This document shows positions 2,172-26,828 of a DNA stretch of 33,595 bases, piece after piece. The DNA is from Candidatus Zhuqueibacterota bacterium (GTDB taxonomy: Bacteria; Zhuqueibacterota; Zhuqueibacteria; Oceanimicrobiales; Oceanimicrobiaceae), in NCBI GenBank assembly GCA_029262035.1, contig JAJDAE010000061.1, positions 1 through 33,595 on the forward strand, read 5' to 3'. The position numbers and the translations under genes are program-made. The notes below the pieces were generated by a model. That model was not told the DNA's origin, ran no database searches, and saw only the letters and a program-made list of their open reading frames with translations. Each line of letters begins with the position of its first letter. Within the stretch, counting starts at the first letter, position 1.

Positions 2172-2188
2172 GGCAACTGGCGTGCCAA
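2172..2188 (-). promoter_or_regulatory. Sigma-54 promoter P1 (-24/-12)
   Basis: The minus strand reads TTGGCACGCCAGTTGCC, close to the RpoN consensus TTGGCACNNNNNTTGCW, with GG at 2186/2185 and GC at 2174/2173 exactly 12 nt apart. The predicted start of transcription is near 2161, giving a leader of about 55 nt before the ATG at 2107. Confidence 0.85.
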
Positions 2189-2283
2189 CATTACTTAATC
2201 ATGCGAACACCTATTCAAATTATTAATTTTATTGGAATTACAAACCTTTCCATTTATAGTTCCCAAACCAGAAATTACTAACA

Positions 2284-2322
2284 TTCGACGAATTGGTCGA
2301 TTTTTTTCGACCATTTAGGCGA
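2284..2322 (-). promoter_or_regulatory. Tandem activator sites upstream of P1
   Basis: Two 17-bp copies on the plus strand, TTCGACGAATTGGTCGA (2284-2300) and TTCGACCATTTAGGCGA (2306-2322), are 22 bp apart, about two helical turns. The first is a perfect dyad TCGAC-N6-GTCGA. The near edge is 98 bp upstream of the -24 GG of P1. The same motif pair precedes three other sigma-54 promoters at the same distance. Confidence 0.8.
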
Positions 2323-2405
2323 AACCTGCAACAAGAGTTCAAGGCCTTTTGCATGATCAAATTTTTCACGGGTAAGATTTGCCGGTAATCGTGGTTATAA
2401 TGCGG

Positions 2406-2442
2406 CAAAGCCATGCACCTTTTTTAGAAGCGCATGGCTTTG
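2406..2442 (-). terminator. Strong hairpin after the HisKA-only gene
   Basis: CAAAGCCATGC (2406-2416) and GCATGGCTTTG (2432-2442) form a perfect 11-bp stem with a 15-nt loop, 24 bp past the stop of the 2466-2807 gene. No U-run follows, so termination is likely but not certain. A similar hairpin follows the cytochrome gene at 4966. Confidence 0.5.
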
Positions 2443-2465
2443 TTCGAGGAGGGTATTAAGGAGAT

Positions 2466-2807
2466 TTAGGCTGCTTTTGCGGTGTTTTTAGAGGCATAAG
2501 TTGCCATAGTGCTTTTCTCTATATCGAGCATACGTATGTCATCCACATAGGTCGTGCTTACCGGCTCTGTCACCATATTCAGGCGATTGAGTACATGTTC
2601 GATTTGTCGGCCGGATTCTGCAATAATTTCAAAATATTCTTTCAATCTTGGTTCGCATTCTTTGTTATCCGTTTGGACTTGGGCGATTGCGAGTGATAGC
2701 GCTCCTAATGGATTTCTGATTTCATGATTTAGGGTTACAACCAGCTCTTTAACTGCATTTAATCTTGCGCGCTTTGTACAATCTGTTGTTCTTAAATCGG
2801 TTCTCAT
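2466..2807 (-). CDS. Stand-alone histidine-kinase phosphoacceptor (HisKA-only) protein
   Basis: This 113-residue cytoplasmic protein has a HisKA dimerisation/phosphotransfer helix with the H-box NHEIRNPLGALSLAIAQV; the phosphoacceptor is His28. The helical hairpin spans about residues 14-80. There is no signal peptide, no membrane segment and no HATPase_c domain: the N, G1 and G2 boxes are all missing. The gene ends cleanly with a poor-complexity tail (about 81-113), and no HATPase remnant is visible downstream, where a hairpin follows. It lies 54 bp after the WxxGxW gene, separated by another hairpin, so it probably shares the sigma-54 promoter P2. By family logic it could accept phosphate from, or heterodimerise with, a full kinase such as the one at 22677-24698, but cannot phosphorylate itself. 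The alternative is a degraded kinase gene. Confidence 0.75.
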   Translation of the reverse strand: MRTDLRTTDCTKRARLNAVKELVVTLNHEIRNPLGALSLAIAQVQTDNKECEPRLKEYFEIIAESGRQIEHVLNRLNMVTEPVSTTYVDDIRMLDIEKSTMATYASKNTAKAA

Positions 2808-2823
2808 TATTAACTCCGGTTTA

Positions 2824-2849
2824 TGCGGGGAGAAAAATTTCTCCCCGCA
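2824..2849 (-). terminator. 12-bp hairpin between the WxxGxW and HisKA-only genes
   Basis: TGCGGGGAGAAA (2824-2835) pairs perfectly with TTTCTCCCCGCA (2838-2849). It starts 12 nt past the stop of the 2862-3329 gene and ends 16 nt before the HisKA-only start, with its 5-base T run inside the stem-loop on the minus strand rather than after it. It may partly terminate transcription and lower expression of the downstream gene. Confidence 0.5.
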
Positions 2850-2861
2850 ACCTGTGTATAT

Positions 2862-3329
2862 TTATAAAACCCAATAACCTGAAATCCAAATTGAGATGCC
2901 ATCGTTGTAAGTCCAGTAACCTGGCAACCAAATCGATCCCGCCGGATAGAGGTCCCAGTAGCCGCTAACCCATACCCATTTGACGAGTTGGTAATCCCAG
3001 ATCCAGCGACCGGTAATCCAAATTGAATTTGCTGCGGGCCGGACAGGAATAATTTGTTTTTTAATTGCCGGTGCTTTTTGCCGTATTACAATCTTATTGC
3101 TCGAGGTACTTTGTTTGCGAACAACTGACTTTGCTGTGGCAGATTTACTCCGGTCATTGGATTTTGGTGTTTGGTACTTTCTGGTCGATTCCACTTTAGC
3201 CTTTGACTTGCTTCGTGTTGTACTTTTCCGGCTTTTCGAACCAGCCCAGGCTTCGGGGTTTAAACCCACAATCATAACTGCTATCATCGTGGTTAAAAAG
3301 ATTCTTTTTATTGATTTCATGATAATCAC
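2862..3329 (-). CDS. Exported WxxGxW-repeat protein
   Basis: The 155-residue product begins with a hydrophobic signal peptide (about 6-29, cut near AWA). A Ser/Lys/Arg/Thr-rich, basic, low-complexity stretch follows (about 30-95). The C-terminal 55 residues carry four WxxGxW motifs: WITGRW, WVSGYW, WLPGYW and WISGYW. These match the WxxGxW repeat family (PF12779 type), often found in secreted or surface-associated bacterial proteins of unknown function; I expect a small beta-rich aromatic repeat. It is the first gene downstream of the sigma-54 promoter P2, with an estimated leader of about 44 nt, and is followed by the HisKA-only gene. The pairing of an envelope protein with a signalling fragment in one transcript is unusual. 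No catalytic residues are apparent. Confidence 0.8.
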   Translation of the reverse strand: MIIMKSIKRIFLTTMIAVMIVGLNPEAWAGSKSRKSTTRSKSKAKVESTRKYQTPKSNDRSKSATAKSVVRKQSTSSNKIVIRQKAPAIKKQIIPVRPAANSIWITGRWIWDYQLVKWVWVSGYWDLYPAGSIWLPGYWTYNDGISIWISGYWVL

Positions 3330-3383
3330 CTCATTTGGTTAATTATTATTCAACTCTATTATTGAATCTTCATTATCTGAATA

Positions 3384-3400
3384 TGCAAGGTGTGTGCCAA
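3384..3400 (-). promoter_or_regulatory. Sigma-54 promoter P2 (-24/-12)
   Basis: The minus strand reads TTGGCACACACCTTGCA, a perfect match to the RpoN consensus, with GG at 3398/3397 and GC at 3386/3385. The predicted transcription start is near 3373, 44 nt before the WxxGxW start codon. Confidence 0.9.
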
Positions 3401-3496
3401 CTTTTTTAAGAGCTCACGCATAGCAACCTTTGCCACTGTAATTAAAGCACTTACATCAACTTTACTCTTGAGACTTTTTAGCTTTCCGACAGAAAT

Positions 3497-3535
3497 GGCG
3501 ACCATTTGGTCTATGGTATTCGACGATTTGGGCTA
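3497..3535 (-). promoter_or_regulatory. Tandem activator sites upstream of P2
   Basis: The plus-strand copies are GGCGACCATTTGGTCTA (3497-3513) and TTCGACGATTTGGGCTA (3519-3535), 22 bp apart. The near edge is 99 bp upstream of the -24 GG. Motif, spacing and distance match the pairs at the other three sigma-54 promoters. Confidence 0.75.
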
Positions 3536-3540
3536 ATATT

Positions 3541-3770
3541 TTTCTTCCCAGCTTTTTGGATTTTTCGTGAACAAAAAAAATAGCCCACGGAAATTAATTC
3601 AACCTAAACTGAACTGTTCCGGATTCAGGATTTTGAGACTCAAAGGTAAAAACAGCTTGCAAATACTTTCTATGATAAGCCGTAAGCACAGCTTCTTGCC
3701 TTCACCAACTGGGCAAAATCTTCGGACCATCTTTGAATTTATATGTTTTAATGAAGCAGGTTTTGATTAG
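3541..3770. other. Intergenic stretch without a supported gene
   Basis: Between the P2 activator sites and the terminator of the 3831-4619 gene I see no gene I can support. A 67-codon plus-strand frame (3567-3770) lacks a ribosome binding site, uses low-complexity basic residues and opposes every gene in the window, so I do not annotate it. No RNA gene was recognised. Confidence 0.5.
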
Positions 3771-3772
3771 GC

Positions 3773-3804
3773 AAAAAAAAACCTCCCGCTGTTACACGGG
3801 AGGT
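3773..3804 (-). terminator. Rho-independent terminator of the four-repeat acidic protein gene
   Basis: On the minus strand ACCTCCCG pairs perfectly with CGGGAGGT (8-bp stem, 8-nt loop, 3781-3804) and is followed by eight T (3773-3780). It sits 26 nt past the stop at 3831. This is the clearest intrinsic terminator in the window and makes the 3831-4619 gene a single-gene transcript. Confidence 0.9.
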
Positions 3805-3830
3805 CTGCGGAGGTGAAAATTACTTAAGTT

Positions 3831-4619
3831 TTAGTTTTTGCCACCACGATTGTTCTTGCCTTTTGGGCCGCTATCGTCACAATCACCGGAGCCACTGCCG
3901 CTACCGTTGTTGCCACTACCACTGCCGCCGTTTCCTCTGCTACCGGAGTTTGCTTTTCTGCCTGAACCATCTTCAGGTCTGACGAAGTCTTCGTCACGTC
4001 CGTTTGGGATTCCGTCGCCGTCATCGTCCATTGCGTTGTCGTTGATACCATCGCCATCCTCGTCGATAAAACCCATCTTGCCTTTTCCATTCATGGGATT
4101 CTGGCGAACGTAGTCCTCATCCTGACCGTTAGGAATTCCATCACCGTCGTCGTCTTTGGCATTGTCGTTGATGCCGTCACCGTCTTCATCTACAAAGCCT
4201 TTGCTGCCACTACGATTGCTGTTACCTTTTTGGCTTTGACCATTTCCTTTATTACCGTTGTTCATCTTTTGCCCGCTACCATCTTGTGCAGGTACAAAGT
4301 CGGGATCTTGACCGTTAGGGATTCCATCACCGTCGTCATCTTTAGCGTTGTCATTGATGCCGTCGCCATCTTCATCCACAAAACCATTACCTTTGCTATT
4401 ATCAGGTCTGATGTAGTCAGAGTCTTTTCCGTTCGGGATTCCATCGCCATCATCGTCTTTTGCATTATCATTTACGCCATCACCATCTGCATCTACAAAG
4501 CCTTTATCCGCTTTCTTGCCTTTTTGTTGTGCATAGGCATCTGTAGATGTGGTGGCAAATAGCAGCATCAATGAAAACAACAGAGCCGCCGCAACAGTAA
4601 GATTCATGATTCTTTTCAT
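3831..4619 (-). CDS. Secreted acidic-repeat (TSP3-like) protein with four repeats
   Basis: This 262-residue protein has a signal peptide (residues 1-30, cut near AYAQQ) and four 30-residue repeats at about 40-69, 79-108, 141-170 and 183-212. Each repeat is GFVDEDGDGINDNAKDDDGDGIPNGxDxD or nearly so, with two DxDGDG loops typical of calcium-binding TSP3 or EF-hand-like repeats. Linkers and the 50-residue C-terminal tail are rich in Gly, Ser and Asn, with one Cys at 247. The repeats are more uniform than in the paralogue at 1490-2107, which suggests recent unit duplication or homogenisation. It is a single-gene unit with its own sigma-54 promoter P3 and a strong terminator, so it can be strongly induced alone. 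By motif it binds Ca2+ outside the cytoplasm; a structural or matrix role is a guess. Confidence 0.85.
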   Translation of the reverse strand: MKRIMNLTVAAALLFSLMLLFATTSTDAYAQQKGKKADKGFVDADGDGVNDNAKDDDGDGIPNGKDSDYIRPDNSKGNGFVDEDGDGINDNAKDDDGDGIPNGQDPDFVPAQDGSGQKMNNGNKGNGQSQKGNSNRSGSKGFVDEDGDGINDNAKDDDGDGIPNGQDEDYVRQNPMNGKGKMGFIDEDGDGINDNAMDDDGDGIPNGRDEDFVRPEDGSGRKANSGSRGNGGSGSGNNGSGSGSGDCDDSGPKGKNNRGGKN

Positions 4620-4688
4620 AACTAAACTCCTTTGTTTAGATAGTTAGTAATTAATTCGCGATTTCAATTCGCTTTCGGGTCGGGTTAA

Positions 4689-4705
4689 GGCAACAGCTAT
4701 GCCAG
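4689..4705 (-). promoter_or_regulatory. Sigma-54 promoter P3 (-24/-12)
   Basis: The minus strand reads CTGGCATAGCTGTTGCC, with GG at 4703/4702 and GC at 4691/4690, 12 nt apart. The predicted transcription start near 4678 gives a leader of about 58 nt to the ATG at 4619. Confidence 0.8.
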
Positions 4706-4801
4706 AAAATTTTGCATCAAATAAAAAATAATATAAACTACATACAATTAACAACTTAAGCTTAATTATTATTAAACCTAAAATGAAAACAAAACGGGAT
4801 T

Positions 4802-4840
4802 CTCGACCATTTAGTCGATTAAATTTCGACGGTTTGGACG
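4802..4840 (-). promoter_or_regulatory. Tandem activator sites upstream of P3
   Basis: The plus-strand copies are CTCGACCATTTAGTCGA (4802-4818) and TTCGACGGTTTGGACGA (4824-4840), 22 bp apart. The near edge is 99 bp upstream of the -24 GG. The same arrangement is found at P1, P2 and P4. Confidence 0.8.
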
Positions 4841-4910
4841 ATATATTTTTGGAAGATAACGGGAGGCGAAGGGTCGACAAGAATAGATTTTTTAGAGACC
4901 TCAACCAAAG

Positions 4911-4943
4911 AAGGCTATGGCCAACTAACGCGACCATAGCCTT
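4911..4943 (-). terminator. Hairpin after the cytochrome c'-like gene
   Basis: AAGGCTATGG (4911-4920) and CCATAGCCTT (4934-4943) form a perfect 10-bp stem with a 13-nt loop, 23 bp past the stop at 4966. The downstream minus-strand bases are moderately T-rich. It probably ends the transcript before the P3 activator sites. Confidence 0.6.
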
Positions 4944-4965
4944 TCCAGAGAAAATAAAGAGGCAT

Positions 4966-5502: not shown

Positions 5503-5675
5503 TGTGTCTCCTTTAATTAATTGGGGTTCGAGCATACCAAATTTTTGCTCATGTAAATTTTCATGCCTGTTGGGCTCACTTCGGGGTTGGTTATGTAGCT
5601 TTGAGCCTCTTGAGTAGTTTTCTTCATTTATAATTTCTAATACCCTTGCCCTTTTTAGATCTTGGAATCTGTGCC

Positions 5676-8903: not shown

Positions 8904-9272
8904 CTACTTATTTTTCCACACTGTCAAAGTTATACCAACCCAGATGATGGAACGGAATGTCATTGCACCAATGCTTTGTACTGCAACTGTGGACGTTCCA
9001 ACATACATGCTGACCAGGATGAGAAGAACGACGACATGGGCGGTTGTGATATAACTCGCCAGTTTGGCAGCCAGCATCTGCACAGACCATATCCAGACCC
9101 CGACAGCAATTGAAATCAGTCCCATGCCCACGTTGTATATTACAAGCCAATTTAAGATTATGTAATCAGGCTGCTTCAGTCCAAGGAGTACTGCCGAACC
9201 GGAAATAACCGAGAGTAAGCCTACCAGAAATCCCGTAATTCCTGCAAGTCGATTTTTGGTTTTAGATATCAT
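8904..9272 (-). CDS. Small four-helix membrane protein, unknown function
   Basis: The 122 residues contain four hydrophobic segments (about 10-30, 41-64, 72-92 and 100-118) and no charged pairs or motifs that I recognise. It follows the RND pump gene by 24 bp and is probably its last co-transcribed partner. It could assist the pump or be independent. An overlapping frame is ignored as a shadow. Confidence 0.7.
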   Translation of the reverse strand: MISKTKNRLAGITGFLVGLLSVISGSAVLLGLKQPDYIILNWLVIYNVGMGLISIAVGVWIWSVQMLAAKLASYITTAHVVVLLILVSMYVGTSTVAVQSIGAMTFRSIIWVGITLTVWKNK

Positions 9273-9296
9273 TGAGTTTTGCGGCGTTACAATTTC

Positions 9297-12200
9297 TTAC
9301 GCCTCTCCTTTTTTTAATTTTGTGAATTTTTGTCCCAAGTCATCAAATGCATCGAATAGTACCGGGATGACTATCATTGTCAAAAAAGTCGAAGCGGCCA
9401 TACCACCGATAACCGCAATCGCCAGCGGTGAAAAACGCTCAGCGCCAAGAGCCCATTCCAATGCAAGCGGGATCATCCCTACGATGGTGGAAAACGACGT
9501 CATCATAATTGGACGAAAACGTGTCCGGACTGAGTCGATAATCGCCTCTCGCCGCTTCTGGCCTTCCGAACGTCTTTGACGGATGAAATCGATCAAGATA
9601 ATCGCGTTGTTGACCACAATTCCTACCAGCAGAATCAAGCCAATCATCACGGGCATGGATGCAGGTTTCCCGGCAACCCACAAAGCTGTGGCAACACCAA
9701 TCATGCTCAAAGGCACCGACATGAGCACGGTGATTGGATGCAGAAATGACTTGAACTGGGCAACTAATAAAAGGTAAATAGCCACAAACGCAATGGCGAG
9801 AGCCCGCACTAATTCACCTCTGGACTCTGCCAGATCTTTATCCTCACCCGCTAGCGAAATCGTATACCCTCTGGGTACAGTTATGTTTGCCAGCACCTTT
9901 CTAACATCCGCCGTCACAAAGCTCAAAGGGCGGCCTTGATGCAAAGCCAGTATTTTCAGAGTGGATTCGAGATTCTCACGAGTAACCAAACCCTGAACAA
10001 GAATTTCACGGCTTTCAGCTACGGCGCTTAACGGCACAACCTGGCCATCTTGCATCGAAATTGTCCGCACCGCTAAGGCATCGGTTTCCTGTTTGCGGAA
10101 GGAGTTGGCGTATCGAACCCGAATGGGTGTGTCCTCACCCAATTGACCGCGATAAATTCCGGCAATGGCGCCATCCAGAGACTGCACCAATTCACGGGCC
10201 GCTACAGCCGGGGAAAGTCCTAATTCTCGTGCCCGTTCTTTATCGATAGAGAGTATCGTGTTGCGCTGGTCTAATCGCCAACTGCGGTAAGGATTCGTAA
10301 CTCCCGCAACTGAGCGGACCAGGGGAAGTGTCTGCTCAACAAGTTTGTCCAGTACCAGCGGGTCAGGCCCCTTAATGATGACCTCTACTGACGCGGCGGT
10401 TGTTGCTTTGGCCGTACCTCCGGATTCTCGCACCACCAGAGTCTGAATACCCGGGACTTTGGCGAGATTATCACGAAGGCGATCTTGTATCTCCCAGATG
10501 GTTTCGTCCCGTGCGGTTCTAGGTGTGAAAGTCAAAGCAAGATGTCCCTGGGTCGGCCCTTGCACGCCACCGCCACCGAAAGAATGCATACCCGGCTCAA
10601 ACCCCATCTGAGTCGAAATAAGTTTGACTTCAGGTTCAGCCAGAATCACCGTTTCAACATCTTGTATTACTTTTTCGGTTTCGTCTAATGAGGAGCCTGA
10701 CGGGGTTTCAACCGTGACGAAGCTGGAACCGGTGTCCAGTTTTGGCAACAGCTCCATGCCCTGAAATCGCATGAGAATTAATCCGGCAACAAAAAGAACA
10801 GTGGCCAGAACAAACACCAGCCAGCGCGTTTGTAAAGCTTTTTGCAATAACCACAGATAGCCGTTGCGTAAATAATTCATTGTCCAGTTCCAGGGGTTAC
10901 TAATTTTCACAGCCCAATCTTCCAGCTTGCCGCCCTGGCGGGTAACCATCGTGGTTAAAATTGGGACCAGCCCCAATGCAACAATCAGAGAGGAAAGGAA
11001 GGCGATAATTAAAGTGCCTGCCAGTGGGCCGAAAATTTTACCCACAAAGCCGTAAAGAAATAACAATGGAATCAGAACCACAAGGGTCGTGGCATTTCCT
11101 GCGATAACAGCAAATTGAATCTCGGAAGCTCCGGCCATCGCAGCCTCTGCAGGGGTTAAGTTACCTTCCTTGTAATGGCGTGTAATATTTTCCAAAACGA
11201 CAACCGAAGCATCGACGACCATGCCTACTGCCAAAATGATGGCAGTTAAGGTCACCAGGTTTAGCTCAATACCCAATAGTTGCATTCCCGCGAACGTAAG
11301 TACAAATGAGATAGGCATGGAGATAGCCACAACAATCCCCCGACTGACACTGCTCAAAAACAAAAATATTACAACAGATGCTAACAACAGAGCCTGACCG
11401 ACGCTTCCCAACATATTGCCGACGACTTGTTCGGTAAAGGAGGCGCCTTCCTCGGCTTCTGTGATTTCAATTTCAGGGTAACGTTTTGATAGTTCTTTAA
11501 ACTTATTTCGAGCCCGCTCAACTACCTGCACGGTGTTGGCGCCGTCTTGTTTAAGAATTTGCATGCCTATGGCCGACTGCCCATTTACCCGGAAACGTGA
11601 GAGATCCTCGCCACCACTTTCACTGATTTCGGCGACGTCGCCAATGAGGATTCTGCTGCCTGCCGGTGTGGTTATTGGGATTTCAGCAATTTCTTGCAGC
11701 GTGCGACTCTGTTCATCAACGCGAAACGTATATTGGCGTCCGGAGCTGCGAATTTGCCCTGCGGGCAGACTGACATTGTGGTTTCGGATCGCCTCTAATA
11801 CCACCCCTAAACGGAGTCGGTGCGCTTCCAGACGGTTCCTGTCTACATGCACGGAAATCTCCGGTTCATGGCCACCAAAAACATCTACCAGGGCCACACC
11901 GTTTACCCGCTGGACTTCCGGCGCCAACACATCTTCGGCCAGACGCCTTACGGCCACCAGGTCTTCTCCTTTCAGCCCAACAGTAAGTACAGGTCGGTCG
12001 CTGGTAGAGAATTTTAAAACCTGCGGTTCACCAATTTCCCGTGGCAACTGAGAGCGAGTTCGAGAAATAGCATTCTGAGCGTCCACTACGGCCAAATCCA
12101 CATCCATATCGTAATTGAATTCCACCGAGACCAATGACAAACCATCCTGCGAAGTTGAACTCACTTTATAGACGCCTTCCAACGCAGCACTTTCATCCTC

Positions 12201-12401
12201 AATAGGCTCAGAGATGAGATCCGCCACATCCTGCGCGGCAGCCCCCGGATAAGGGGTCAGAATATTGACTAACGGTGGCGCTGTTTCAGGAAAGAGATCA
12301 ATAGGTAGCGTGAAATATGCCAGCGTTCCGAATATAACCGCAGCGATGGAGAGTGCCCCAACTGTGTGCCGGTTTAACAGAGCAAAGCGGGAAAGCGTCA
12401 T
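9297..12401 (-). CDS. RND-family efflux pump, inner-membrane subunit
   Basis: The 1034-residue protein has the usual RND length and layout: TM1 (about 12-30), a porter loop, TM2-6 from about 335, a second TM7 and porter loop, and TM8-12 near the C-terminus. TM4 carries GMVVDASVVVLEN with a single proton-relay Asp where AcrB has two. The second half has the repeated GIVVNNAIILIDF segment and RTRFRPIMMTSF. It would drive proton-coupled export through the neighbouring adaptor and TolC-like channel. Substrates are not evident; the sequence style is that of the broad HAE1/CzcA-like group without metal-specific motifs. The start overlaps the adaptor's stop (ATGA), showing tight translational coupling. 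The TetR at 14916-15500 is the likely regulator. Confidence 0.93.
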   Translation of the reverse strand: MTLSRFALLNRHTVGALSIAAVIFGTLAYFTLPIDLFPETAPPLVNILTPYPGAAAQDVADLISEPIEDESAALEGVYKVSSTSQDGLSLVSVEFNYDMDVDLAVVDAQNAISRTRSQLPREIGEPQVLKFSTSDRPVLTVGLKGEDLVAVRRLAEDVLAPEVQRVNGVALVDVFGGHEPEISVHVDRNRLEAHRLRLGVVLEAIRNHNVSLPAGQIRSSGRQYTFRVDEQSRTLQEIAEIPITTPAGSRILIGDVAEISESGGEDLSRFRVNGQSAIGMQILKQDGANTVQVVERARNKFKELSKRYPEIEITEAEEGASFTEQVVGNMLGSVGQALLLASVVIFLFLSSVSRGIVVAISMPISFVLTFAGMQLLGIELNLVTLTAIILAVGMVVDASVVVLENITRHYKEGNLTPAEAAMAGASEIQFAVIAGNATTLVVLIPLLFLYGFVGKIFGPLAGTLIIAFLSSLIVALGLVPILTTMVTRQGGKLEDWAVKISNPWNWTMNYLRNGYLWLLQKALQTRWLVFVLATVLFVAGLILMRFQGMELLPKLDTGSSFVTVETPSGSSLDETEKVIQDVETVILAEPEVKLISTQMGFEPGMHSFGGGGVQGPTQGHLALTFTPRTARDETIWEIQDRLRDNLAKVPGIQTLVVRESGGTAKATTAASVEVIIKGPDPLVLDKLVEQTLPLVRSVAGVTNPYRSWRLDQRNTILSIDKERARELGLSPAVAARELVQSLDGAIAGIYRGQLGEDTPIRVRYANSFRKQETDALAVRTISMQDGQVVPLSAVAESREILVQGLVTRENLESTLKILALHQGRPLSFVTADVRKVLANITVPRGYTISLAGEDKDLAESRGELVRALAIAFVAIYLLLVAQFKSFLHPITVLMSVPLSMIGVATALWVAGKPASMPVMIGLILLVGIVVNNAIILIDFIRQRRSEGQKRREAIIDSVRTRFRPIMMTSFSTIVGMIPLALEWALGAERFSPLAIAVIGGMAASTFLTMIVIPVLFDAFDDLGQKFTKLKKGEA

Positions 12402-13462
12402 GGGGTCACCTCTTTAGTCTCAACAGCAAAGACCGGCGTCCCTTCTTCCAAGCTTCTGAGGTTAGAAATGGCCACGCGGTCTTTTCCATTCCAGAGGAAC
12501 ACAACTTCAACCCAGCCATCTTGTTCAATGCCGATGGTTACCGGCTGCTTTTTAGCACGGTTTTCCTGAATCAAAAAGATGTTCGAATTGCCGGCCTGAC
12601 TGGAAATCGCGGCCACCGGAACGGCTATGCCGTCGCTGCTGGATTCAAGGATGAAATTCACCTGCATTGAGCTACCAACGCGCAATTCTTCACCGCTATT
12701 TTTCAATGCCGGCACCGGCAGCTTAACTGTAAACGTGCGGGCACGTCCGCTGGCAACCGGGGCAGCTTCTGAAACTTTAGATTGAAATTTATGTCCCTGC
12801 CAGTCCTGCACATAGACAGGAACGCCAACCCTAATCCCTCTTCTCAAATCTTCTTCTACCACCTCCACATGAATTTCAAGTTCATCGTTGCCGAGTAGTA
12901 AAATAGGTTGACCGGGCATGACGTGCTGTCCGGGCTCAACCAGCCAAGAGAGCACCTTGCCATTAATCGATGAAAATTCATTAGCCTTATCAAGCTTAGC
13001 TTCGACTTCGGCCATTGCGGCTTTGGCGCTGCGGTAAGCTCGCAAACTGACTTCCATCTGTTCTGACGGTAGCGCTTCGGCCTCAACTAATCTTTGATCT
13101 GCTTCATATCGACGCCGCCAGTAATCCAGGTCCGCTTGCAGCCGCTCGGCGATTGCACGAATATCCGGTACATCGATCTCCGCAACTTGCTCGGCTTTGC
13201 TAACAGGTACGCCTTCAGCTTTCGGCAAAGAGACCACCGTCCCTTGCACTTGGGCGATGACCTTGACTTCGCGATTGGCACGCACCGTACCCATGTAAGA
13301 CACACGGCTTTGCAGGTCCATGCGCATGGGTTGCGTGACACGCACAGCTATTGGAGTTACGGTTACCTCGTCGGCGCGGTTATCGCTGCAACCGGAAAGA
13401 GAAAAACCGGCTGTAATGATTAAAAACGCCGATATACTAAAGGAAAATATTTTATGCGTCAT
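12398..13462 (-). CDS. RND efflux adaptor (periplasmic membrane-fusion lipoprotein)
   Basis: The 354-residue adaptor carries a lipoprotein signal peptide with Cys25 in SLSGC. It then shows the usual HlyD/AcrA order: a lipoyl half (YMGTVRANREVKVIAQVQGTV), a helical hairpin (about 100-165), the second lipoyl half (NGKVLSWLVEPGQHVMPGQPIL), and beta-barrel and membrane-proximal domains. It links the RND pump to the TolC-like channel. It overlaps both neighbours by 4 nt (ATGA at 13459-13462 and at 12398-12401), so the three subunits are translationally coupled. Confidence 0.93.
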   Translation of the reverse strand: MTHKIFSFSISAFLIITAGFSLSGCSDNRADEVTVTPIAVRVTQPMRMDLQSRVSYMGTVRANREVKVIAQVQGTVVSLPKAEGVPVSKAEQVAEIDVPDIRAIAERLQADLDYWRRRYEADQRLVEAEALPSEQMEVSLRAYRSAKAAMAEVEAKLDKANEFSSINGKVLSWLVEPGQHVMPGQPILLLGNDELEIHVEVVEEDLRRGIRVGVPVYVQDWQGHKFQSKVSEAAPVASGRARTFTVKLPVPALKNSGEELRVGSSMQVNFILESSSDGIAVPVAAISSQAGNSNIFLIQENRAKKQPVTIGIEQDGWVEVVFLWNGKDRVAISNLRSLEEGTPVFAVETKEVTP

Positions 13463-14808
13463 GGTACACTCCTTACGATTGTTTCAGCCAGACTTGCTGT
13501 TAAAGTGCCTGATGTGGCATGGTAATTCGTCAATGCCAGCTGTCCGGCATATACCACCCCTCTTTCTGTTATTTGCAATTGCAGTAGTTCGGTTTCCTGG
13601 GTCAGTAACTCGCTGAGAGAGATGCGGCCTGCTTCATATCTCTGCCGTTGGGCGATTACCGACTGTGATTTGGAACCCACAGCCTGAGCAAGATGTTGTT
13701 GGCGAATGTCAAAAATTCGCCATTGTTCAAAGGCAATCCGCAAAGCAGCATTTTGGGTTTGCAGGACCGCCTGATGGCCTTGCTCCGCCGCTCTCACCGA
13801 GGCTTTTGCAGCCCTCACGTTTGCGATACGCCGTCCGCCGTCAAAGATAGGCAGGCTGATGTTGAGGCCGATCGCCCATTCACCAGTCATGTCCAAGTCG
13901 CCGCCGGAGCGTGCGAAGTAAGAAGCAAAACCACTGATTTCAGGCCAAAAACTTCTTGAGGCCTGAGCCCGTAAAGCTTGCGTCCGTTCCAATTGTGCTT
14001 GCGCTATGCGTACCTCGGGGCCGGCAACCTGGGAAACGGCTGTCAGTGAATCCGGCAATAATACTTTTTCTACTAAGCCATCTTGTGTTGGAACCAAGGG
14101 TTTAATCGGACTATTCGTTCCAACCAATTGCCCAAGACGAATGGTTAGTTGATAAAACCCTGATTCAATCTCCAGGCTGTCAGAACGGGTCAATTCTATG
14201 GATGAAGTCACAAGTCCCAGATCAGCCGGTGAAACTCTACCTTCGTTTAACAGCAAACCAAGTTCGCGGTAACGCTGCTGCAGTATTTGCAACCGTGCGA
14301 TAATCAGACCTTTCTTATCCTGCAATTCCTGGGATTGGATATAGATTTGTACGATGCCTTCGATAAGGCGCTTTTCAGTCAAGTCTTCTTGCACGGCAGA
14401 TTCTGTGGCCGATGCTCTGGCCGCACGAGTCCCGGCCAGGGTGCGTCCACCGCTGAACAGGGGAACCTTAACCTGGGTAATGGCTTCATAAATCTCGTTG
14501 TCCAAAGGGGGGAATACGCCCACCTTGTGAATTGGAACGATGATATTAGGTTCCTTAAAATGGGTGTATCCAGAAGAAACGAGAATCTGTGGGAAAAAAT
14601 CACTCTTCGCTGCTCCAATTCCGGCCTCGGTCGCATCTCGCTGCGCTCTTACGGACTTCATAATTGGATTTTTCTTTAAAGCTGTCTCTAACGCTTCGGT
14701 TATCCCAATACCCGGCAGGCCGTTATTCGCATGGAGAGTTGACGCGAATGATGCGATTAAGAAAACCGCACTTAGAAACTGTATTACTTTATTCTTTTTA
14801 AATTTCAT
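13459..14808 (-). CDS. TolC-like outer-membrane efflux channel
   Basis: The 449-residue product has a signal peptide (about 1-28, cut near LHA) and two repeats of the outer-membrane efflux protein family: GITEALETALKKNP...ATEAGIGAAKSDFFPQI in the first half and IAQAQLERTQALRAQASRSFWPEISGF in the second. The long alternating helices fit the periplasmic tunnel. It is the first gene after tetR in the efflux operon and overlaps the adaptor gene by 4 nt. A palindromic operator lies 77 bp upstream of its start, so it probably has its own repressed promoter besides read-through from tetR. Confidence 0.92.
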   Translation of the reverse strand: MKFKKNKVIQFLSAVFLIASFASTLHANNGLPGIGITEALETALKKNPIMKSVRAQRDATEAGIGAAKSDFFPQILVSSGYTHFKEPNIIVPIHKVGVFPPLDNEIYEAITQVKVPLFSGGRTLAGTRAARASATESAVQEDLTEKRLIEGIVQIYIQSQELQDKKGLIIARLQILQQRYRELGLLLNEGRVSPADLGLVTSSIELTRSDSLEIESGFYQLTIRLGQLVGTNSPIKPLVPTQDGLVEKVLLPDSLTAVSQVAGPEVRIAQAQLERTQALRAQASRSFWPEISGFASYFARSGGDLDMTGEWAIGLNISLPIFDGGRRIANVRAAKASVRAAEQGHQAVLQTQNAALRIAFEQWRIFDIRQQHLAQAVGSKSQSVIAQRQRYEAGRISLSELLTQETELLQLQITERGVVYAGQLALTNYHATSGTLTASLAETIVRSVP

Positions 14809-14884
14809 CTTGTTCTACTTCCCTTTATTATTCTTTGCCTTTCTTTGGAGTTTGATGCAGAAACCAAAAGAAAGACGCAAAGTT

Positions 14885-14902
14885 TGTTAGCGCAAACTAA
14901 CA
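14885..14902 (-). promoter_or_regulatory. TetR-type operator upstream of the TolC-like gene
   Basis: TGTTAGCGCAAACTAACA (plus strand) has the dyad TGTTAG-N6-CTAACA. It matches the site upstream of tetR (15519-15536) at 15 of 18 positions. It lies in the 107-bp gap between tetR and the efflux genes and is the best candidate for repressor binding. Confidence 0.75.
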
Positions 14903-14915
14903 AGCAAAAGAAAAA

Positions 14916-15500
14916 TTAATTCACACTTTCAGCAAACGCTCTCCACAACGCCGGAGCCCGGTCACTGATGGAAAACTCAAACCCACTCAATGACCAGATA
15001 AATGCGGTTGCCTGCACCAAACCTAAAAAAGCAATGGCTGTGGCTTCAATATTGATATCTGGTTTCACCTGACCGTTATCTTTTGCTCTTAGCAGAATGC
15101 CGCGAATGAGGTCAAGATAATGGTTGACCATCTTCAACACCGCCTTGCGCAAAACGGGATCATTTTGATGCACTTCTTCAGAGAAAATTAACCTCGGGAT
15201 ACCTTTGTTTTGTTCAAGATAGCCCAAATGGATATGCAGGATTTCTTTTAGCTTATCCACCGGGTTTTCGATATTGGAAACAGCGCTACTGATATTGACA
15301 GTTAAGTTTCGTCCTACTGTTTCGATCATGGCCAGCACGATCTCTTGTTTGTTCGTAAAATGCCTGTACAGTGCTGCATCCGAAATACCGATTCTGTTAC
15401 CTATATTTTTCATAGTTAAATTCTTAAACCCCTCTTCTGAAATAATTTGCAGGGCGTTAAAAACGATTTGTTCTTTGCGGTTGCTCGAAGGTTCGTTCAC
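14916..15500 (-). CDS. TetR/AcrR-family repressor of the RND operon
   Basis: The 194-residue protein has an N-terminal TetR helix-turn-helix (about residues 8-55: IVFNALQIISEEGFKNLTMKN and ISDAALYRHFTNKQEI) and a C-terminal all-helical ligand domain. It lies directly upstream of the efflux operon in the same direction. Two near-identical palindromes, one in front of its own gene and one in front of the TolC-like gene, fit autoregulation plus control of the pump. The ligand is unknown; by family it is likely to be a small hydrophobic pump substrate. Confidence 0.9.
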   Translation of the reverse strand: MNEPSSNRKEQIVFNALQIISEEGFKNLTMKNIGNRIGISDAALYRHFTNKQEIVLAMIETVGRNLTVNISSAVSNIENPVDKLKEILHIHLGYLEQNKGIPRLIFSEEVHQNDPVLRKAVLKMVNHYLDLIRGILLRAKDNGQVKPDINIEATAIAFLGLVQATAFIWSLSGFEFSISDRAPALWRAFAESVN

Positions 15501-15518
15501 GGCAATATCCTAAAAGTT

Positions 15519-15561: not shown

Positions 15562-15637
15562 GATTTTTTATAAAAATTTGAATTTGAGGGAAAGCAAAGG
15601 AGCGCAGAGAGTTGTGCTTGGATTTGTATGGAATTGT

Positions 15638-16921
15638 TTAAAAGAAGAAGCGTAGCCAGGTCTCGACCTTTGTTTCAAATTGTTTACTGCCATATTCAGA
15701 GTTGCCATCTCCCCAAAATAGCGTTGGCCACAACAGAAACTCAAAATTGGTAAAAGGCTTGTAACCCAGTTGAGCAGAAAGAGTAAAACTGTTGTCATTC
15801 AGATTGTAAATGGTGAAGGCGCCAATAGAAGAATAAAGCCAGCTAAACGGTTCGGGTTGACTAACTTTAATGTAAAGATAATCCCGCATGAAGGTACGGG
15901 TCTGAAACCGGCTGGTGAAATCGAGCCGGGTTTGGGAAACGATTTCCGGATCGCCGCTGTCCATCGCATTACCAAGAAAATTTAGTACATCGGTGAATTC
16001 AGTCTCGTTTAAGCCGCGATTGTTACGATAGTATTCAGCAATAATGGTCGTGTTCAAGTTGGTCAGATATCGTAATCCAAAAAGATAAGATGTGCCGCTG
16101 ATTTTCTTTTGCAGAATTTCATTATTTTGTACAAATGCTTTGGGGTCATCTTTGTCGTAACTAACCTCTCCATGGATTTCCAGGTTAGTTCGAATATTCG
16201 TGGAAAAATCGAAGCCGTACCGTTGCGGTTCATCCTGGCGCTGGAACATCATAAAATCGATATCAATGTTGCGTAGCAGAAAGTACAGTTTCAAGGCGAT
16301 TCCTGTATGATCTGCCTGCGAAAACTTATCATTAAATTCCGCTTCCTGTGGCATAACAATACCGGAAAAAGACATATTCTGTAACCACTCAGACTCGTAG
16401 CTTTTGTTGTAATTGAAATAGCCCGAGACAATACCTGCCAAGGCAAGATCGGGATTTTCAGGATCCTTTTCTGTGTTGACGTAGCCAACCGGATTAAATG
16501 CGTAGCCCTTTCCCCAAAAATAGCGCCGTTTCCCTACCCCGGCTGAAAGCCTTGGCGTTAGATTTAAGCTACCATACAATTCAAAAAAGGTCGGGTCAAT
16601 AGGACCTTCTTTGGTGTATTGATAGAAAGTTTTCATCAAGAATCCGACTTGCTTATGGCGGTATTCGCCGTTAAAATAAAAATCCAGCCGATTTTGGGAA
16701 AGATAAGAATCATCATTACCGGTATTAAAAAAGTTCATTCTGTAAAGCGGCGATTCCTTCCGGGCTCTTAAAATGCCCCATTTCGCATCGAGATTACCGT
16801 TAAACTCGATGCTCGCCTCTTCCTCTTCTTCCGGAATATCAAAGTCGTAATCCTGAGAAATGGCTATACCGCTGAACAGAATATTCAGAAAAAAAACAAT
16901 CGGGAGACAAACCCTCATCAA
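15638..16921 (-). CDS. Outer-membrane protein of the Lol-like operon
   Basis: The 427-residue protein has a signal peptide (about 1-21) and then an acidic patch (DIPEEEEEASIEF). The rest looks like a beta-barrel: alternating aromatic residues (LDFYFNGEYRH, FLMKTFYQYTK) and a terminal WLRFFF, the aromatic end that BAM substrates need. I do not recognise a named family. It overlaps the LolA-like gene by 4 nt (ATGA) and is the last gene of the run that starts at 20135. By context it could be the outer-membrane partner or the cargo of the ABC/LolA-like system; neither can be shown from the sequence. No terminator with a U-run was found in the 100 bp after it. Confidence 0.75.
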   Translation of the reverse strand: MMRVCLPIVFFLNILFSGIAISQDYDFDIPEEEEEASIEFNGNLDAKWGILRARKESPLYRMNFFNTGNDDSYLSQNRLDFYFNGEYRHKQVGFLMKTFYQYTKEGPIDPTFFELYGSLNLTPRLSAGVGKRRYFWGKGYAFNPVGYVNTEKDPENPDLALAGIVSGYFNYNKSYESEWLQNMSFSGIVMPQEAEFNDKFSQADHTGIALKLYFLLRNIDIDFMMFQRQDEPQRYGFDFSTNIRTNLEIHGEVSYDKDDPKAFVQNNEILQKKISGTSYLFGLRYLTNLNTTIIAEYYRNNRGLNETEFTDVLNFLGNAMDSGDPEIVSQTRLDFTSRFQTRTFMRDYLYIKVSQPEPFSWLYSSIGAFTIYNLNDNSFTLSAQLGYKPFTNFEFLLWPTLFWGDGNSEYGSKQFETKVETWLRFFF

Positions 16922-17652
16922 CGCAACTCCCCCAATCTGGGGATATAATCAAGCGTAAAAACTTCATTGGGAAACTTGCGCAATTTAAGTTTTGAATAAA
17001 TAAGCACGGACCGAAATCCTTTGTAAAGCGGACTGGTGGTTTCAATTACTGCCGGGCGAACCAGGCCATTGCCAAAATCTTTTATTTCCTTAAATTCCAG
17101 GGTCTTAATCAAAGTACCTGAGGCGGCGTAACACTCAACTTTCTCGACCAGCAGTGATTTTTTATCAACCCACATTTTTAATTTGTCATACGCCACGCTG
17201 GTGGTCTTGGCTTTCAAGTCAAGGATATATTGTGAGTCCGTTTTCTCATTAAAGGTCGCATTATACTCCACAGAATAATCCAAACGCATAATGTCGGAAT
17301 TGTTGAACACACCCCCCACCACGGACTGCAAGCTGGTGATGCGAATTGGCCGACCGACGTTCGGAATATACAACCACATATTATCACCTTTGCGCAGGGT
17401 TGCCCTGCCCTTATCGCTGGCCGGGGATAAATAGAGCATGGCCACATTGTCCTTACCTTTTTTCACGCTGTAGAAGATGAACTCCTTTTTACTGCCATCA
17501 GGCTCTTCGTTTATGAGTTTGCGGTAAGACTCGAACGATTCCGGCAGCAGTTTCTCGTCGGCTTGTTTCAAAATCTCATTAGCATTCTGGGAAAAGCCTG
17601 AAGAAAAAAGAGCAAGGCTCAATACTGAGAATAACCATTTATATCTTATCAT
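16918..17652 (-). CDS. LolA-like outer-membrane lipoprotein-sorting protein
   Basis: The 244-residue product has a signal peptide (about 1-21, cut near GFSQ). It matches the LolA-like family often named outer membrane lipoprotein-sorting protein (PF17131 type): repeated strands such as KGRATLRKGDNMWLYIPNVGRPIRI, then MLYLSPASDKG, then LKMWVDKKSLLVEKVECY. Members form a half-barrel that carries lipids or lipoproteins across the periplasm. It sits between an ABC permease and an outer-membrane protein in the same transcript, which supports a trans-envelope transport route. AAGGAG lies upstream of the ATG at 17652. Confidence 0.85.
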   Translation of the reverse strand: MIRYKWLFSVLSLALFSSGFSQNANEILKQADEKLLPESFESYRKLINEEPDGSKKEFIFYSVKKGKDNVAMLYLSPASDKGRATLRKGDNMWLYIPNVGRPIRITSLQSVVGGVFNNSDIMRLDYSVEYNATFNEKTDSQYILDLKAKTTSVAYDKLKMWVDKKSLLVEKVECYAASGTLIKTLEFKEIKDFGNGLVRPAVIETTSPLYKGFRSVLIYSKLKLRKFPNEVFTLDYIPRLGELR

Positions 17653-17695
17653 TTAAAAACTCCTTGATTTCGTAAAAACGCTATTTATCATTCAC

Positions 17696-18946
17696 TCAAA
17701 CATGTCTCAGCGCTTCGACCGGTTGCATCTTTGATGCCTTGAGAGCCGGCTGAAAACTCGAAAGGACAGTAATTAAGAGGACGATGACGGAGATTGTCAG
17801 CAACTCGGAGGAGGAAACTGAGGTTACAAGCTGGATGTCTTTCATTCTCCCAAAAGAAAAATGGAAATTGGAAATATTAATAACATATAAAACTGCAACT
17901 CCCAGAATATTGCCGATGATGGTGCTAATCAAGCCAAGGCTAAAGCCCTCAGCCAGAAATAACCCCAGAATTCTGGAAGGCAAAGTACCGATTGCAGAAA
18001 TGGTTCCGATCTCACTGACCCGTTCATAAACCGACATCATCATAACATTGAGAATACTGACGAGAACAATGGCTATCAAAACAATTTTAACGGTAATGAT
18101 TAACAGGTCTACAATTGTAGCGATGGTCGCAAATGGTGACAGTTCCGCCCATGTGTGAGATTCAAACGCCGGTTGGTCTTGTTTGTTTATGAATTGCTGT
18201 AATTCAGCGCCTAACTGTTTTTTCACCTCTTTTAAGTCATCTAATTCATTGAGTCGAATGGCTATTTCATTAATCTCATCTCCGGTAATTCGCAGCAATG
18301 TTTTTGCATCATCAATATGAATATAGCCGTCTCTTCCCGATGGCCCGAGCAGTCCTTCCACGATTCCGGCTACCTTCAGCCCGATGGCATTTACCGAACC
18401 GTCCTTATTTGTCGCAACCAGAACGATGTCATCACCCTTTTTTAATTTTAAGCCCTTTGCCAGATTTTTAGGAAGAATCAATTCACCCTCTTGCATAAAC
18501 TGTCCGTCTTCCGCAGAATTTCCTTCTATGCGATCTGTAAGGGCGGGACAGGTCTGACTTTCCATTTCCGGGTCAACTGCTGTTAAGCGGATGTTAGTCG
18601 TTTGCTCAAAATTACTCAACATGGCGCCGAGCTTAATACGAAAAGTGTAAGCCTTGATCATCTCGTTGTCATCTAAAACCTTACGTAGATTTGAAATTTC
18701 TTTACTAGTGAGATTTAAATGCAGCGGCAAATTATCGATGGAGCTGACATACCCTTTTTTATGAATCTGCAAATGTCCCATCATGGAATCTGTAATCGTA
18801 CCGATCATCATACCTTTGAAAGAGGTTGAAATACCTGAAAACACGATGACCAAAATCATCCCAAAAACAATGAGTAGACTGGTAAGCAAAGTCCGTCTTT
18901 TATAACGGAACAAATTCCGAAACGCTATTTTGAATATATTTTTCAT
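17696..18946 (-). CDS. ABC transporter permease, LolE/FtsX-like
   Basis: The 416-residue protein has the MacB/LolCE topology: one N-terminal membrane helix (about 18-40), a large periplasmic domain (about 45-265) and three C-terminal helices in an FtsX domain (ILNVMMMSVYERVSEIGTISAIG; final KASKMQPVEALRHV). It pairs with the ATPase gene 15 bp upstream. Such permeases do not move substrates through the membrane but extract or deliver molecules on the periplasmic side, which fits the LolA-like gene that follows after 43 bp. Confidence 0.9.
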   Translation of the reverse strand: MKNIFKIAFRNLFRYKRRTLLTSLLIVFGMILVIVFSGISTSFKGMMIGTITDSMMGHLQIHKKGYVSSIDNLPLHLNLTSKEISNLRKVLDDNEMIKAYTFRIKLGAMLSNFEQTTNIRLTAVDPEMESQTCPALTDRIEGNSAEDGQFMQEGELILPKNLAKGLKLKKGDDIVLVATNKDGSVNAIGLKVAGIVEGLLGPSGRDGYIHIDDAKTLLRITGDEINEIAIRLNELDDLKEVKKQLGAELQQFINKQDQPAFESHTWAELSPFATIATIVDLLIITVKIVLIAIVLVSILNVMMMSVYERVSEIGTISAIGTLPSRILGLFLAEGFSLGLISTIIGNILGVAVLYVINISNFHFSFGRMKDIQLVTSVSSSELLTISVIVLLITVLSSFQPALKASKMQPVEALRHV

Positions 18947-18961
18947 CTCTCTGCTTCTCCC

Positions 18962-19666
18962 TCAATTAGAACTTTTCAGATTCATGATTTCTTTGTTCGT
19001 CATCTGTCCGTCTTCCAGTGTAAAAACAATTTCTGCTTCCTTCATAATTTTAGGATCATGTGTGGAAAAAACAAAAGTCGTTTTCAAATCACGTTGCATT
19101 TGCCGCATTAATTCGATGACTTTAAAAGCGCTGGTATGATCGAGATTTGCCGTAGGTTCATCTGCAAGCACCAATTTAGGATTCGTTACCAGCGCTCGAG
19201 CCACGGCAACGCGCTGCTTTTGCCCTCCTGATATTTGCCCCGGGTATTTGTCTTTTTGATCCAGCATGCTCACTGCTTCGAGATAATGTAAAATTCTTTC
19301 CCGGCGTTCTTTTGGTGCTATATTCTGCACCATAATTAATGGGTACTCCACATTTTCATAGACTGTAAGAACAGGGATAAGGTTGAAATTTTGAAAAATA
19401 AATCCCAGGTGGTTGCCTCTGAATCGTGCAGCTTCCCGGGTTTCCAAATCATTAACGTGGGTGCCGTTCACGTAAACATTTCCCGTTGAAGGTTTATCCA
19501 GACAACCGATCAGGTTCAGGAGTGTGGTTTTACCACTCCCTGACGGCCCGACAAATGAAACAAACGATTGCTCTTCAATTTGTAAAGAAACACTCTTTAG
19601 CGCGTCGACTCGTGTTTCGCTCATATCGTAAAACTTGGACACACCTTTAAGTTCTATTAATGCCAT
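18962..19666 (-). CDS. ABC transporter ATPase, LolD/MacB-like
   Basis: The 234-residue ATPase has all the expected motifs: Walker A GPSGSGKT (40-47), Q-loop FQNFNLIPVLTVYENVEYPL, signature SGGQKQRVAVARAL, Walker B LVLADEPTANLD and the switch His in STHD. The length fits LolD. It is 16 bp downstream of the ferritin-like lipoprotein gene and 15 bp upstream of the permease, so all are in one transcript from P4. It powers the envelope transporter. There is only one permease gene, so the complex would be a homodimer as in MacB rather than the LolCE heterodimer. Confidence 0.93.
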   Translation of the reverse strand: MALIELKGVSKFYDMSETRVDALKSVSLQIEEQSFVSFVGPSGSGKTTLLNLIGCLDKPSTGNVYVNGTHVNDLETREAARFRGNHLGFIFQNFNLIPVLTVYENVEYPLIMVQNIAPKERRERILHYLEAVSMLDQKDKYPGQISGGQKQRVAVARALVTNPKLVLADEPTANLDHTSAFKVIELMRQMQRDLKTTFVFSTHDPKIMKEAEIVFTLEDGQMTNKEIMNLKSSN

Positions 19667-19682
19667 TAGCCTTATTCCTTCA

Positions 19683-20135
19683 CTAAATAATCAAATTATT
19701 CTCAAATACCAACCGGACATCTGCAGGCAATTCCAACTTGAGAAATTCATCGTACAGCTCAATATTCTCGATTTCAGCTATAACACCGGCTGCGCAAGCT
19801 TCCACTACTGAAGCAAATGCCGGAACATTGTAAAGGTTCCATTCGCTTTCAGGTACCTCAAACCCACCATTACTAAAAACTCGTCCAATGGACAAAAAAT
19901 GCCGCACTTCAGCGTTGACGATACTACTAAAAGGCTGCACAGCGCCAAAATCTGCCAAAACTCTGAGGTAAATATTTTCAGCACGATATTCATCCTGAAT
20001 TGCTGAATTCAGTATGATTATAACTTCCGGGGTCAAAGGTTCCGAAGGGGTTACCGAGTCACTTAAATTACTACAAGATATTAGAACGGCCAAAAGCATA
20101 CTGAGTGCTGCGACTTTTATGATCACAGTTTTCAT
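19683..20135 (-). CDS. Ferritin-like (DUF2202-type) lipoprotein, C-terminally short
   Basis: The start at 20135 is chosen over in-frame codons up to 20252: AAAGGAG precedes it, it begins a lipoprotein signal peptide (lipobox LISC, Cys21), and the upstream extension overlaps promoter P4. The 150 residues include a ferritin-like four-helix domain of DUF2202 type, with likely metal ligands in QDEYRAEN (Glu49, Glu53), NAEVRHF (Glu76, His79) and IAEIENIELYD (about Glu121). The protein stops after VFENNLII, where relatives normally continue with a short Asn/His motif; the following frame holds another stop at once, so a late truncation is likely. Iron or manganese binding at the envelope is inferred. 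It is the first gene of the P4 transcript, ahead of the ABC genes. Confidence 0.75.
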   Translation of the reverse strand: MKTVIIKVAALSMLLAVLISCSNLSDSVTPSEPLTPEVIIILNSAIQDEYRAENIYLRVLADFGAVQPFSSIVNAEVRHFLSIGRVFSNGGFEVPESEWNLYNVPAFASVVEACAAGVIAEIENIELYDEFLKLELPADVRLVFENNLII

Positions 20136-20233
20136 TTTTGTTCTCCTTTTCATAAAGTTAGATGATGCATATTTCAAAAAGATACAAAAAAAGTCTATTT
20201 GCTTGCATTTTCTTTTCATTTCGGACAGGCTAA

Positions 20234-20250
20234 GGCAACCCGTGTACCAC
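20234..20250 (-). promoter_or_regulatory. Sigma-54 promoter P4 (-24/-12)
   Basis: The minus strand reads GTGGTACACGGGTTGCC, with GG at 20248/20247 and GC at 20236/20235, 12 nt apart. The predicted transcription start near 20223 gives a leader of about 88 nt. It would drive the ferritin-like lipoprotein and the Lol-like genes. Confidence 0.75.
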
Positions 20251-20345
20251 AACCTGAACCTTGAAACAATAGGAATATAAGTGCTTGAATTTACAACAAT
20301 AATGGAGACGTAATGTCTGAGTCTTAGAATTATTTCATTCGAATT

Positions 20346-20385
20346 TTCGACGATTTGGACGAGATAAATTCAACGGTTTGGAGGA
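20346..20385 (-). promoter_or_regulatory. Tandem activator sites upstream of P4
   Basis: The plus-strand copies are TTCGACGATTTGGACGA (20346-20362) and TTCAACGGTTTGGAGGA (20369-20385), 23 bp apart. The near edge is 98 bp upstream of the -24 GG. They begin 55 bp past the stop of the metal-transporter gene, which is in the response-regulator operon. Confidence 0.8.
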
Positions 20386-26816: not shown

Positions 26817-26828
26817 GTCTCTCCTGAT

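Follow-up and report, generated by a model that had tools for sequence, protein, structure and literature searches.

A stretch of 33,595 nucleotides from a Candidatus Zhuqueibacterota bacterium (assembly GCA_029262035.1, contig JAJDAE010000061.1, positions 1 to 33,595), referred to here as the window, carries four minus-strand promoters of the sigma-54 (RpoN) type, P1 to P4, each preceded by two copies of an inverted-repeat dyad at a nearly constant distance. It also encodes a membrane sensor histidine kinase (22677-24698) and an NtrC-family response regulator (21261-22625). The host belongs to the candidate phylum KSB1 (Zhuqueibacterota), and its 5.31-Mb genome, G000, was analyzed together with a KSB1 set of 82 genomes labeled in the same manner. 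We put at about 0.88 the probability that the window is one locus of a phylum-wide KSB1 sigma-54 regulon run by this kinase and regulator. What we read from the sequence is the cis architecture, its conservation, and its links to the kinase/regulator pair and to a family of repeat genes. An earlier note on this DNA had proposed a regulon of the four window promoters; those four stand, but the regulon appears to extend far wider than the window and also to take in the kinase and an IHF-like bend site.

All four -24/-12 sites contain the GG-N10-GC core and the TGGCACR-N4-TTGCW consensus, and the promoter coordinates and sequences given in the earlier note were confirmed. A 16-base-pair (bp) dyad, TCGAC-N6-GTCGA, lies in paired form 98-99 bp upstream of each. 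Its consensus in the sense of transcription is TCGACCAAATSGTCGA, an almost perfect inverted repeat; the motif first described is real, although it was reported as the reverse complement of this sequence. Re-measuring the distance from the near dyad edge to the -24 GG returned the values originally claimed (98, 99, 99, and 98 bp), while the spacings within the pairs are 22, 22, 23, and 23 bp rather than 22, 22, 22, and 23, the third having been off by one. Three of the four promoters (P1, P3, and P4) additionally contain an IHF-like site with a single mismatch. The elements are as follows.

2172..2188, minus strand: P1 -24/-12 (sigma-54) promoter TTGGCACGCCAGTTGCC, a sequence match to the RpoN consensus
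2216..2228, minus strand: P1 IHF-like site AATTAATAATTTG, one mismatch to WATCAANNNNTTR
2285..2300, minus strand: P1 near dyad TCGACCAATTCGTCGA, 98 bp before the -24 GG
2307..2322, minus strand: P1 far dyad TCGCCTAAATGGTCGA, 22 bp from the near copy
3384..3400, minus strand: P2 -24/-12 promoter TTGGCACACACCTTGCA, by sequence match
3498..3513, minus strand: P2 near dyad TAGACCAAATGGTCGC, 99 bp before the -24 GG
3520..3535, minus strand: P2 far dyad TAGCCCAAATCGTCGA, 22 bp from the near copy
4689..4705, minus strand: P3 -24/-12 promoter CTGGCATAGCTGTTGCC, by sequence match
4746..4758, strand given as ".": P3 IHF-like site, one mismatch, opposite orientation
4803..4818, minus strand: P3 near dyad TCGACTAAATGGTCGA, 99 bp before the -24 GG
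4826..4841, minus strand: P3 far dyad TCGTCCAAACCGTCGA, 23 bp from the near copy
20234..20250, minus strand: P4 -24/-12 promoter GTGGTACACGGGTTGCC, by sequence match
20278..20290, minus strand: P4 IHF-like site ATTCAAGCACTTA, one mismatch
20347..20362, minus strand: P4 near dyad TCGTCCAAATCGTCGA, 98 bp before the -24 GG
20370..20385, minus strand: P4 far dyad TCCTCCAAACCGTTGA, 23 bp from the near copy

The claim that this architecture is not a product of chance is borne out by counting. Allowing up to three mismatches, the single 17-mer has 6 matches in the window, where 0.09 would be expected. A relaxed pattern for the pair has only four matches in the whole host genome, all of them in the window and all before -24/-12 sites, and the reversed-pattern control has none; the paired motif is therefore not scattered through the genome. 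Single dyad copies, with 14 matches genome-wide including those in the window and 11 and 10 in reversed controls, look like background outside the pairs.

The constancy of the four window sites might instead reflect recent duplication of a promoter cassette, as the paralogy of the P1 and P3 target genes would allow. Pairwise comparison of the four enhancer-promoter spacers nevertheless reveals similarity only at chance level (z from -1.3 to 2.1), indicating that the geometry between dyads and promoter is constrained rather than recently copied. Across many families, moreover, the sites are kept while the rest has diverged and the distances have changed by helical steps. The duplication account is thus largely refuted, and we consider it very improbable. 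The earlier description of "four unrelated sites" applies to the spacers but not to the P1 and P3 genes.

Beyond the host, the strict pair is found in G052 and in two genomes of the host's own family, G024 and G026, and in each of the three a -24/-12 site follows at 90-100 bp. Scanning the genome collection with this strict family motif hit three KSB1 genomes as well as five from outside the phylum, and the latter hits were set aside as chance matches, all lying within long open frames. The narrow distribution implied by the strict family-level motif was dropped once a scan of kinase neighborhoods, covering up to 20 kb around forty kinase orthologs, showed a broader one. The general motif derived in this way consists of two TCGAC-N6-GTCGA dyads, 20-23 bp apart, before strong sigma-54 sites. 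A whole-genome census of the pair-plus-promoter pattern yielded 49 matches in 32 of the 82 KSB1 genomes, whereas the reversed pattern yielded 7. A uniform catalog initially held 65 rows in 39 genomes and, after removal of one antisense site within a coding region and one weak site, comprises 63 promoters in 38 genomes.

Distances from the near dyad to the GG in the catalog cluster at 63, 75-79, 84-89, 93-102, and 109-111 bp, and the strongest periodicity falls at 11.0-11.2 bp (R = 0.65; p = 5e-5 against a jitter null). The spacing within the dyad pair is 21 or 22 bp at 53 of the 63 promoters. Position 6 of the -24 element, which played no part in selection, is a purine in 63/63, as in TGGCACR. 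IHF-like sites with at most one mismatch are present in 35 of 62 spacers, compared to 14.7 ± 3.1 under a dinucleotide null (maximum 22 in 200) and 9 of 62 in a control stretch upstream of the dyads. Eight of these spacer sites are exact, where the null gives 0.94, and their positions also step by about 11 bp. One promoter-like arrangement in the host (G000:C234:9305-9442, L158), in which CGACA-N4-TGTCG dyads stand before a -24/-12-like site upstream of an open reading frame (ORF) of 164 amino acids (aa), was left out of the catalog as being below threshold and having a different dyad; it is perhaps the site of a different enhancer-binding protein, or chance.

The first gene behind most cataloged promoters encodes an exported protein with tandem FVDENGDGxNDNAPDADGDGIPNGQDPDY repeats, hereafter the DGDG-repeat family. 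When repeat-protein genes were collected by protein similarity, the architecture lay within 420 bp upstream in 42 of 47, in comparison with 9 of 527 other ORFs in kinase neighborhoods, some of which are alternative frames over repeat genes. Among the five repeat genes without it, three (in G016, G030, and G032) have wrongly chosen starts and promoters that are in the catalog, and one is a gene fragment. All ten repeat genes retrieved solely by protein similarity have the architecture. The sites thus precede homologous repeat-protein genes in dozens of KSB1 genomes, answering the question of conservation in relatives that the earlier note had raised.

Other targets include DUF2202 ferritin-like proteins (PF09968) in G003, G055, and G030, multiheme cytochromes in G026 and G052, and a secreted family of about 495 aa in G055, G063, G064, and G066, whose G055 member, the sole one tested, has no Pfam match. 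Members of this last family (AWPDSLxxVTLxGTVIIDTTH...; L086 483, L084, L095, L092 5436) have a sorting-type C-terminus, NYPNPFNP. A GHL6-like putative glycosyl hydrolase is also encoded behind a paired-dyad promoter in the related genomes G049 and G048 (L170, L146). As predicted from these translations, the core product of the regulon is an exported acidic repeat family with EF-hand-like D-x-[DN]-G-D-G loops, and the side targets vary by lineage.

These results also bear on whether the matches arose by chance or as an artefact of motif-scan selection, a concern because thresholds were chosen after the window sites were known. Reversed controls give 0-7 matches where the real patterns give 45-49, and features that were not selected for (the purine at position 6, the IHF-like sites, the helical phasing, and the identity of the targets) agree. 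The ten-of-ten result for repeat genes was a blind test, which refutes an artefact, and the five matches outside KSB1 fell where chance would place them. We regard this explanation as having next to no likelihood.

The regulon is linked to its candidate regulators by two adjacent genes.

21261..22625, minus strand: NtrC-family response regulator, the proposed activator (receiver, AAA+ with GAFTGA, Fis-type helix-turn-helix)
22677..24698, minus strand: membrane sensor histidine kinase, its proposed partner (sCache-like, PAS, HisKA, HATPase)

The regulator has an intact GAFTGA motif and the receiver, Sigma54_activat, and Fis-type helix-turn-helix domains. Its recognition helix is conserved, mostly as ERHLRYKLxKYG, some families having ERHLRSRL or ERNLRYK instead. 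The kinase adjoins the regulator both in the window and at almost every orthologous locus, and orthologs of its sensor part occur in 47 of the 82 KSB1 genomes; no solved structural relative of the sensor domain was found. The host also encodes RpoN (PF04552, 204.8 bits) and two HU/IHF-type proteins.

Since kinases of this class number in the dozens in the host genome, the activator could be a different NtrC-type protein, with the neighboring pair linked to the promoters for other reasons. One candidate lies in a paralogous kinase/regulator pair (G000:C225:16274-20154; L045 6275-10154) with a DGDG-repeat gene of its own behind it, an arrangement that again ties kinase and regulator to repeat proteins. 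A different dyad pair, TCGACCTCAAGGTCGA / TCGCCTGAGGTGTCGA, lies upstream of the paralogous kinase, with no good -24/-12 site nearby, which argues against this paralog. The motif, by contrast, tracks the kinase family of the window across genera: the kinase is present in 30 of the 32 census-positive genomes but in 17 of the 50 without a match (Fisher p = 2.8e-8), and the repeat family, found in 42 of the 82 genomes, occurs in 38 of 47 kinase-positive versus 4 of 35 kinase-negative genomes (p = 1.8e-10). The dyads adjoin this pair in the strict-motif genomes G024, G026, and G052, where the kinase is full-length or nearly so and close to the motif, and in many others. Kinase, motif, and repeat protein are jointly absent from each of the same-family genomes G025, G027, G028, and G029, and the motif-less relatives G025 and G027 have kinase-core matches only. 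We therefore think a different activator unlikely, and the regulator at 21261-22625, which the earlier note had put forward, is the right candidate given the conserved adjacency of the pair and the way kinase orthologs follow the motif.

Four observations weigh against a regulon run by this pair. In nine genomes that carry the kinase, no repeat protein was clearly matched at the chosen cut-off. G013, G062, and G067 possess the motif and a repeat gene while the kinase went undetected, two of these being incomplete metagenome-assembled genomes. The G026 homolog of the P2 gene is without the sites, indicating that peripheral membership of the regulon varies. Finally, cross-talk is possible, as the host, with the G000:C225 pair among its genes, has numerous kinases and probably a large number of NtrC-type regulators.

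NtrC-type activators undergo phosphorylation-driven assembly on tandem sites and use ATP to open RpoN closed complexes through a DNA loop. On this model, we infer that the kinase would sense an envelope signal and phosphorylate the regulator, whose dimers would bind the two helically phased TCGAC-N6-GTCGA dyads and assemble into an AAA+ hexamer. The hexamer would then reach RpoN polymerase at the -24/-12 element via a DNA loop, bent with the help of an IHF/HU-type protein. Expression of the DGDG-repeat proteins and of lineage-specific extras (ferritin-like, cytochrome, and other envelope proteins) would follow. The DGDG loops may bind calcium or another metal, and the products probably act in the envelope. 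Accessory proteins of the ZraP/CpxP kind feed back on their sensor. A more tentative possibility is a dedicated, phylum-specific surface-protein program. Its universal product, the DGDG-repeat protein, would represent a novel class of exported proteins that bind calcium or another metal, and would likewise feed back on the kinase of its own circuit.

The regulon is new in its enhancer motif and in its undescribed target family, the mechanism being standard, and we found no published description of it. No paper on KSB1 with sigma-54 or RpoN turned up in the open-licence literature, and two papers on the phylum are silent on the topic. In Proteobacteria, the phylogenetic profile of a cis site associated with PEP-CTERM genes matches that of the PrsK/PrsR regulator pair (Haft et al. 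2006, PMC1569441). PrsK/PrsR is the nearest known counterpart of the KSB1 system, which resembles it in having a dedicated membrane histidine kinase and NtrC-type regulator, a motif before -24/-12 sites, and an exported target family. The KSB1 system differs in phylum, in targets, and in the score of the window regulator against the PrsR model TIGR02915 (435.6 bits; cut-off 502.6), and no PEP-CTERM tail was seen in translations of the window targets, nor such a domain in the Pfam scans made.

The ZraS/ZraR system of E. coli and Salmonella acts through sigma-54 on few targets beside the regulator, including the small periplasmic metal-binding protein ZraP. The KSB1 system shares with it an AtoC/ZraR-like regulator, sigma-54 promoters, and targets beside the regulator, but the ZraR and ZraS models score 464 of 760 and 216 of 479 bits, no ZraP homolog was seen, and the targets are different. 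AtoS and AtoC are the best NCBIfam models for both window proteins, yet they too fall below their cut-offs (AtoC 537/714 bits, AtoS 332/646), and no short-chain fatty-acid genes were seen here; the regulator matches the AtoC, ZraR, NtrC, and PrsR models, each below cut-off. As far as their main texts go, studies of Desulfovibrio enhancer-binding proteins describe many NtrC-type regulators with mostly one to four target operons (Kazakov 2015, PMC4641369; Rajeev 2011, PMC3333781). Those regulons likewise combine a binding motif with a -24/-12 site, in a different phylum, and the strings TCGAC and GTCGA do not occur in the main texts of the two papers, figures and supplements lying outside the search. 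The DGDG family resembles thrombospondin type-3 (TSP3) and bacterial TSP3 repeats in its short Asp-rich DxDxDG loops in tandem, but the Pfam TSP3/TSP3_bac models reach only about 9 of 25 bits, below the gathering score, and the DGDG-repeat protein has no sequence match in the PDB.

For an uncultured phylum, this is among the first regulons to be defined concretely: its regulator is named, its cis-code is precise enough for target prediction in other genomes, and an uncharacterized protein family is tied to it. The distances, quantized at about 11 bp, and the intervening IHF-like sites amount to a natural experiment, across dozens of genomes, on how helical phase governs enhancer looping. What the DGDG-repeat protein does also becomes testable, as the kinase signal should reveal its role.

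The genes behind the four window promoters are listed below.

1490..2107, minus strand: P1 target, exported DGDG-repeat protein, 205 aa (translation, protein similarity)
792..1424, minus strand: probable downstream partner of the P1 target, related exported D-rich protein, 210 aa (homolog behind the promoter gene in G024)
2862..3320, minus strand: P2 target, exported protein with WxxGxW-like repeats, 152 aa (ATG start at 3320)
2466..2807, minus strand: second ORF behind P2, HisKA (DHp) domain without an ATPase domain (domain scan)
3831..4619, minus strand: P3 target, exported DGDG-repeat protein, 262 aa, paralog of 1490-2107 (protein similarity)
19683..20135, minus strand: P4 target, lipoprotein, 150 aa, probable distant DUF2202/ferritin-like relative
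18962..19666, minus strand: P4 operon, ABC transporter ATPase (domain scan; homolog in the G026 operon)
17696..18946, minus strand: P4 operon, FtsX/MacB-like permease (domain scan; G026 counterpart)
16918..17652, minus strand: P4 operon, LolA-like lipoprotein-sorting protein (domain scan; G026 counterpart)
15638..16921, minus strand: P4 operon, exported protein, beta-barrel-like by sequence, 427 aa

The earlier statement that nearly all targets are exported or envelope proteins needs qualification, as neither the HisKA-only ORF behind P2 nor the ABC ATPase behind P4 is exported. The former, a stand-alone protein of 113 aa whose H-box (NHEIRNPL) is good, may modulate the circuit by phosphotransfer or phosphatase activity, or may be a remnant. 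The P4 lipoprotein is probably a distant DUF2202/ferritin-like relative, based on a modest profile match to DUF2202 (PF09968; E = 0.0017, probability 15%, 115 columns). The Pfam scan gave no match for it, its predicted fold was of low confidence and uninformative and was not used, and a literature search on DUF2202 found nothing. In G026, a paired-dyad sigma-54 site also stands before the counterpart of the P4 ABC/FtsX/LolA operon, upstream of the preceding gene, and the operon continues into kinase and regulator genes, which suggests that the pair may be autoregulated there.

Two further gene sets accompany the regulon in the window. Positions 25614-30568 (minus strand) encode an octaheme tetrathionate-reductase-family cytochrome (TIGR04315, above cut-off), a protein resembling cytochrome b561, and a pair of YeeE/YedE-type proteins with a rhodanese domain; in G026, homologs of this set adjoin the kinase and regulator. 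This neighborhood (RND efflux, a VIT-type transporter, the octaheme cytochrome, and the YeeE-like proteins) hints at a role in metal or redox stress. The RND pump is encoded at 8904-15500 (minus strand) together with a TetR regulator, an outer-membrane factor, a membrane-fusion protein, and a small membrane protein, in a gene order common to G026.

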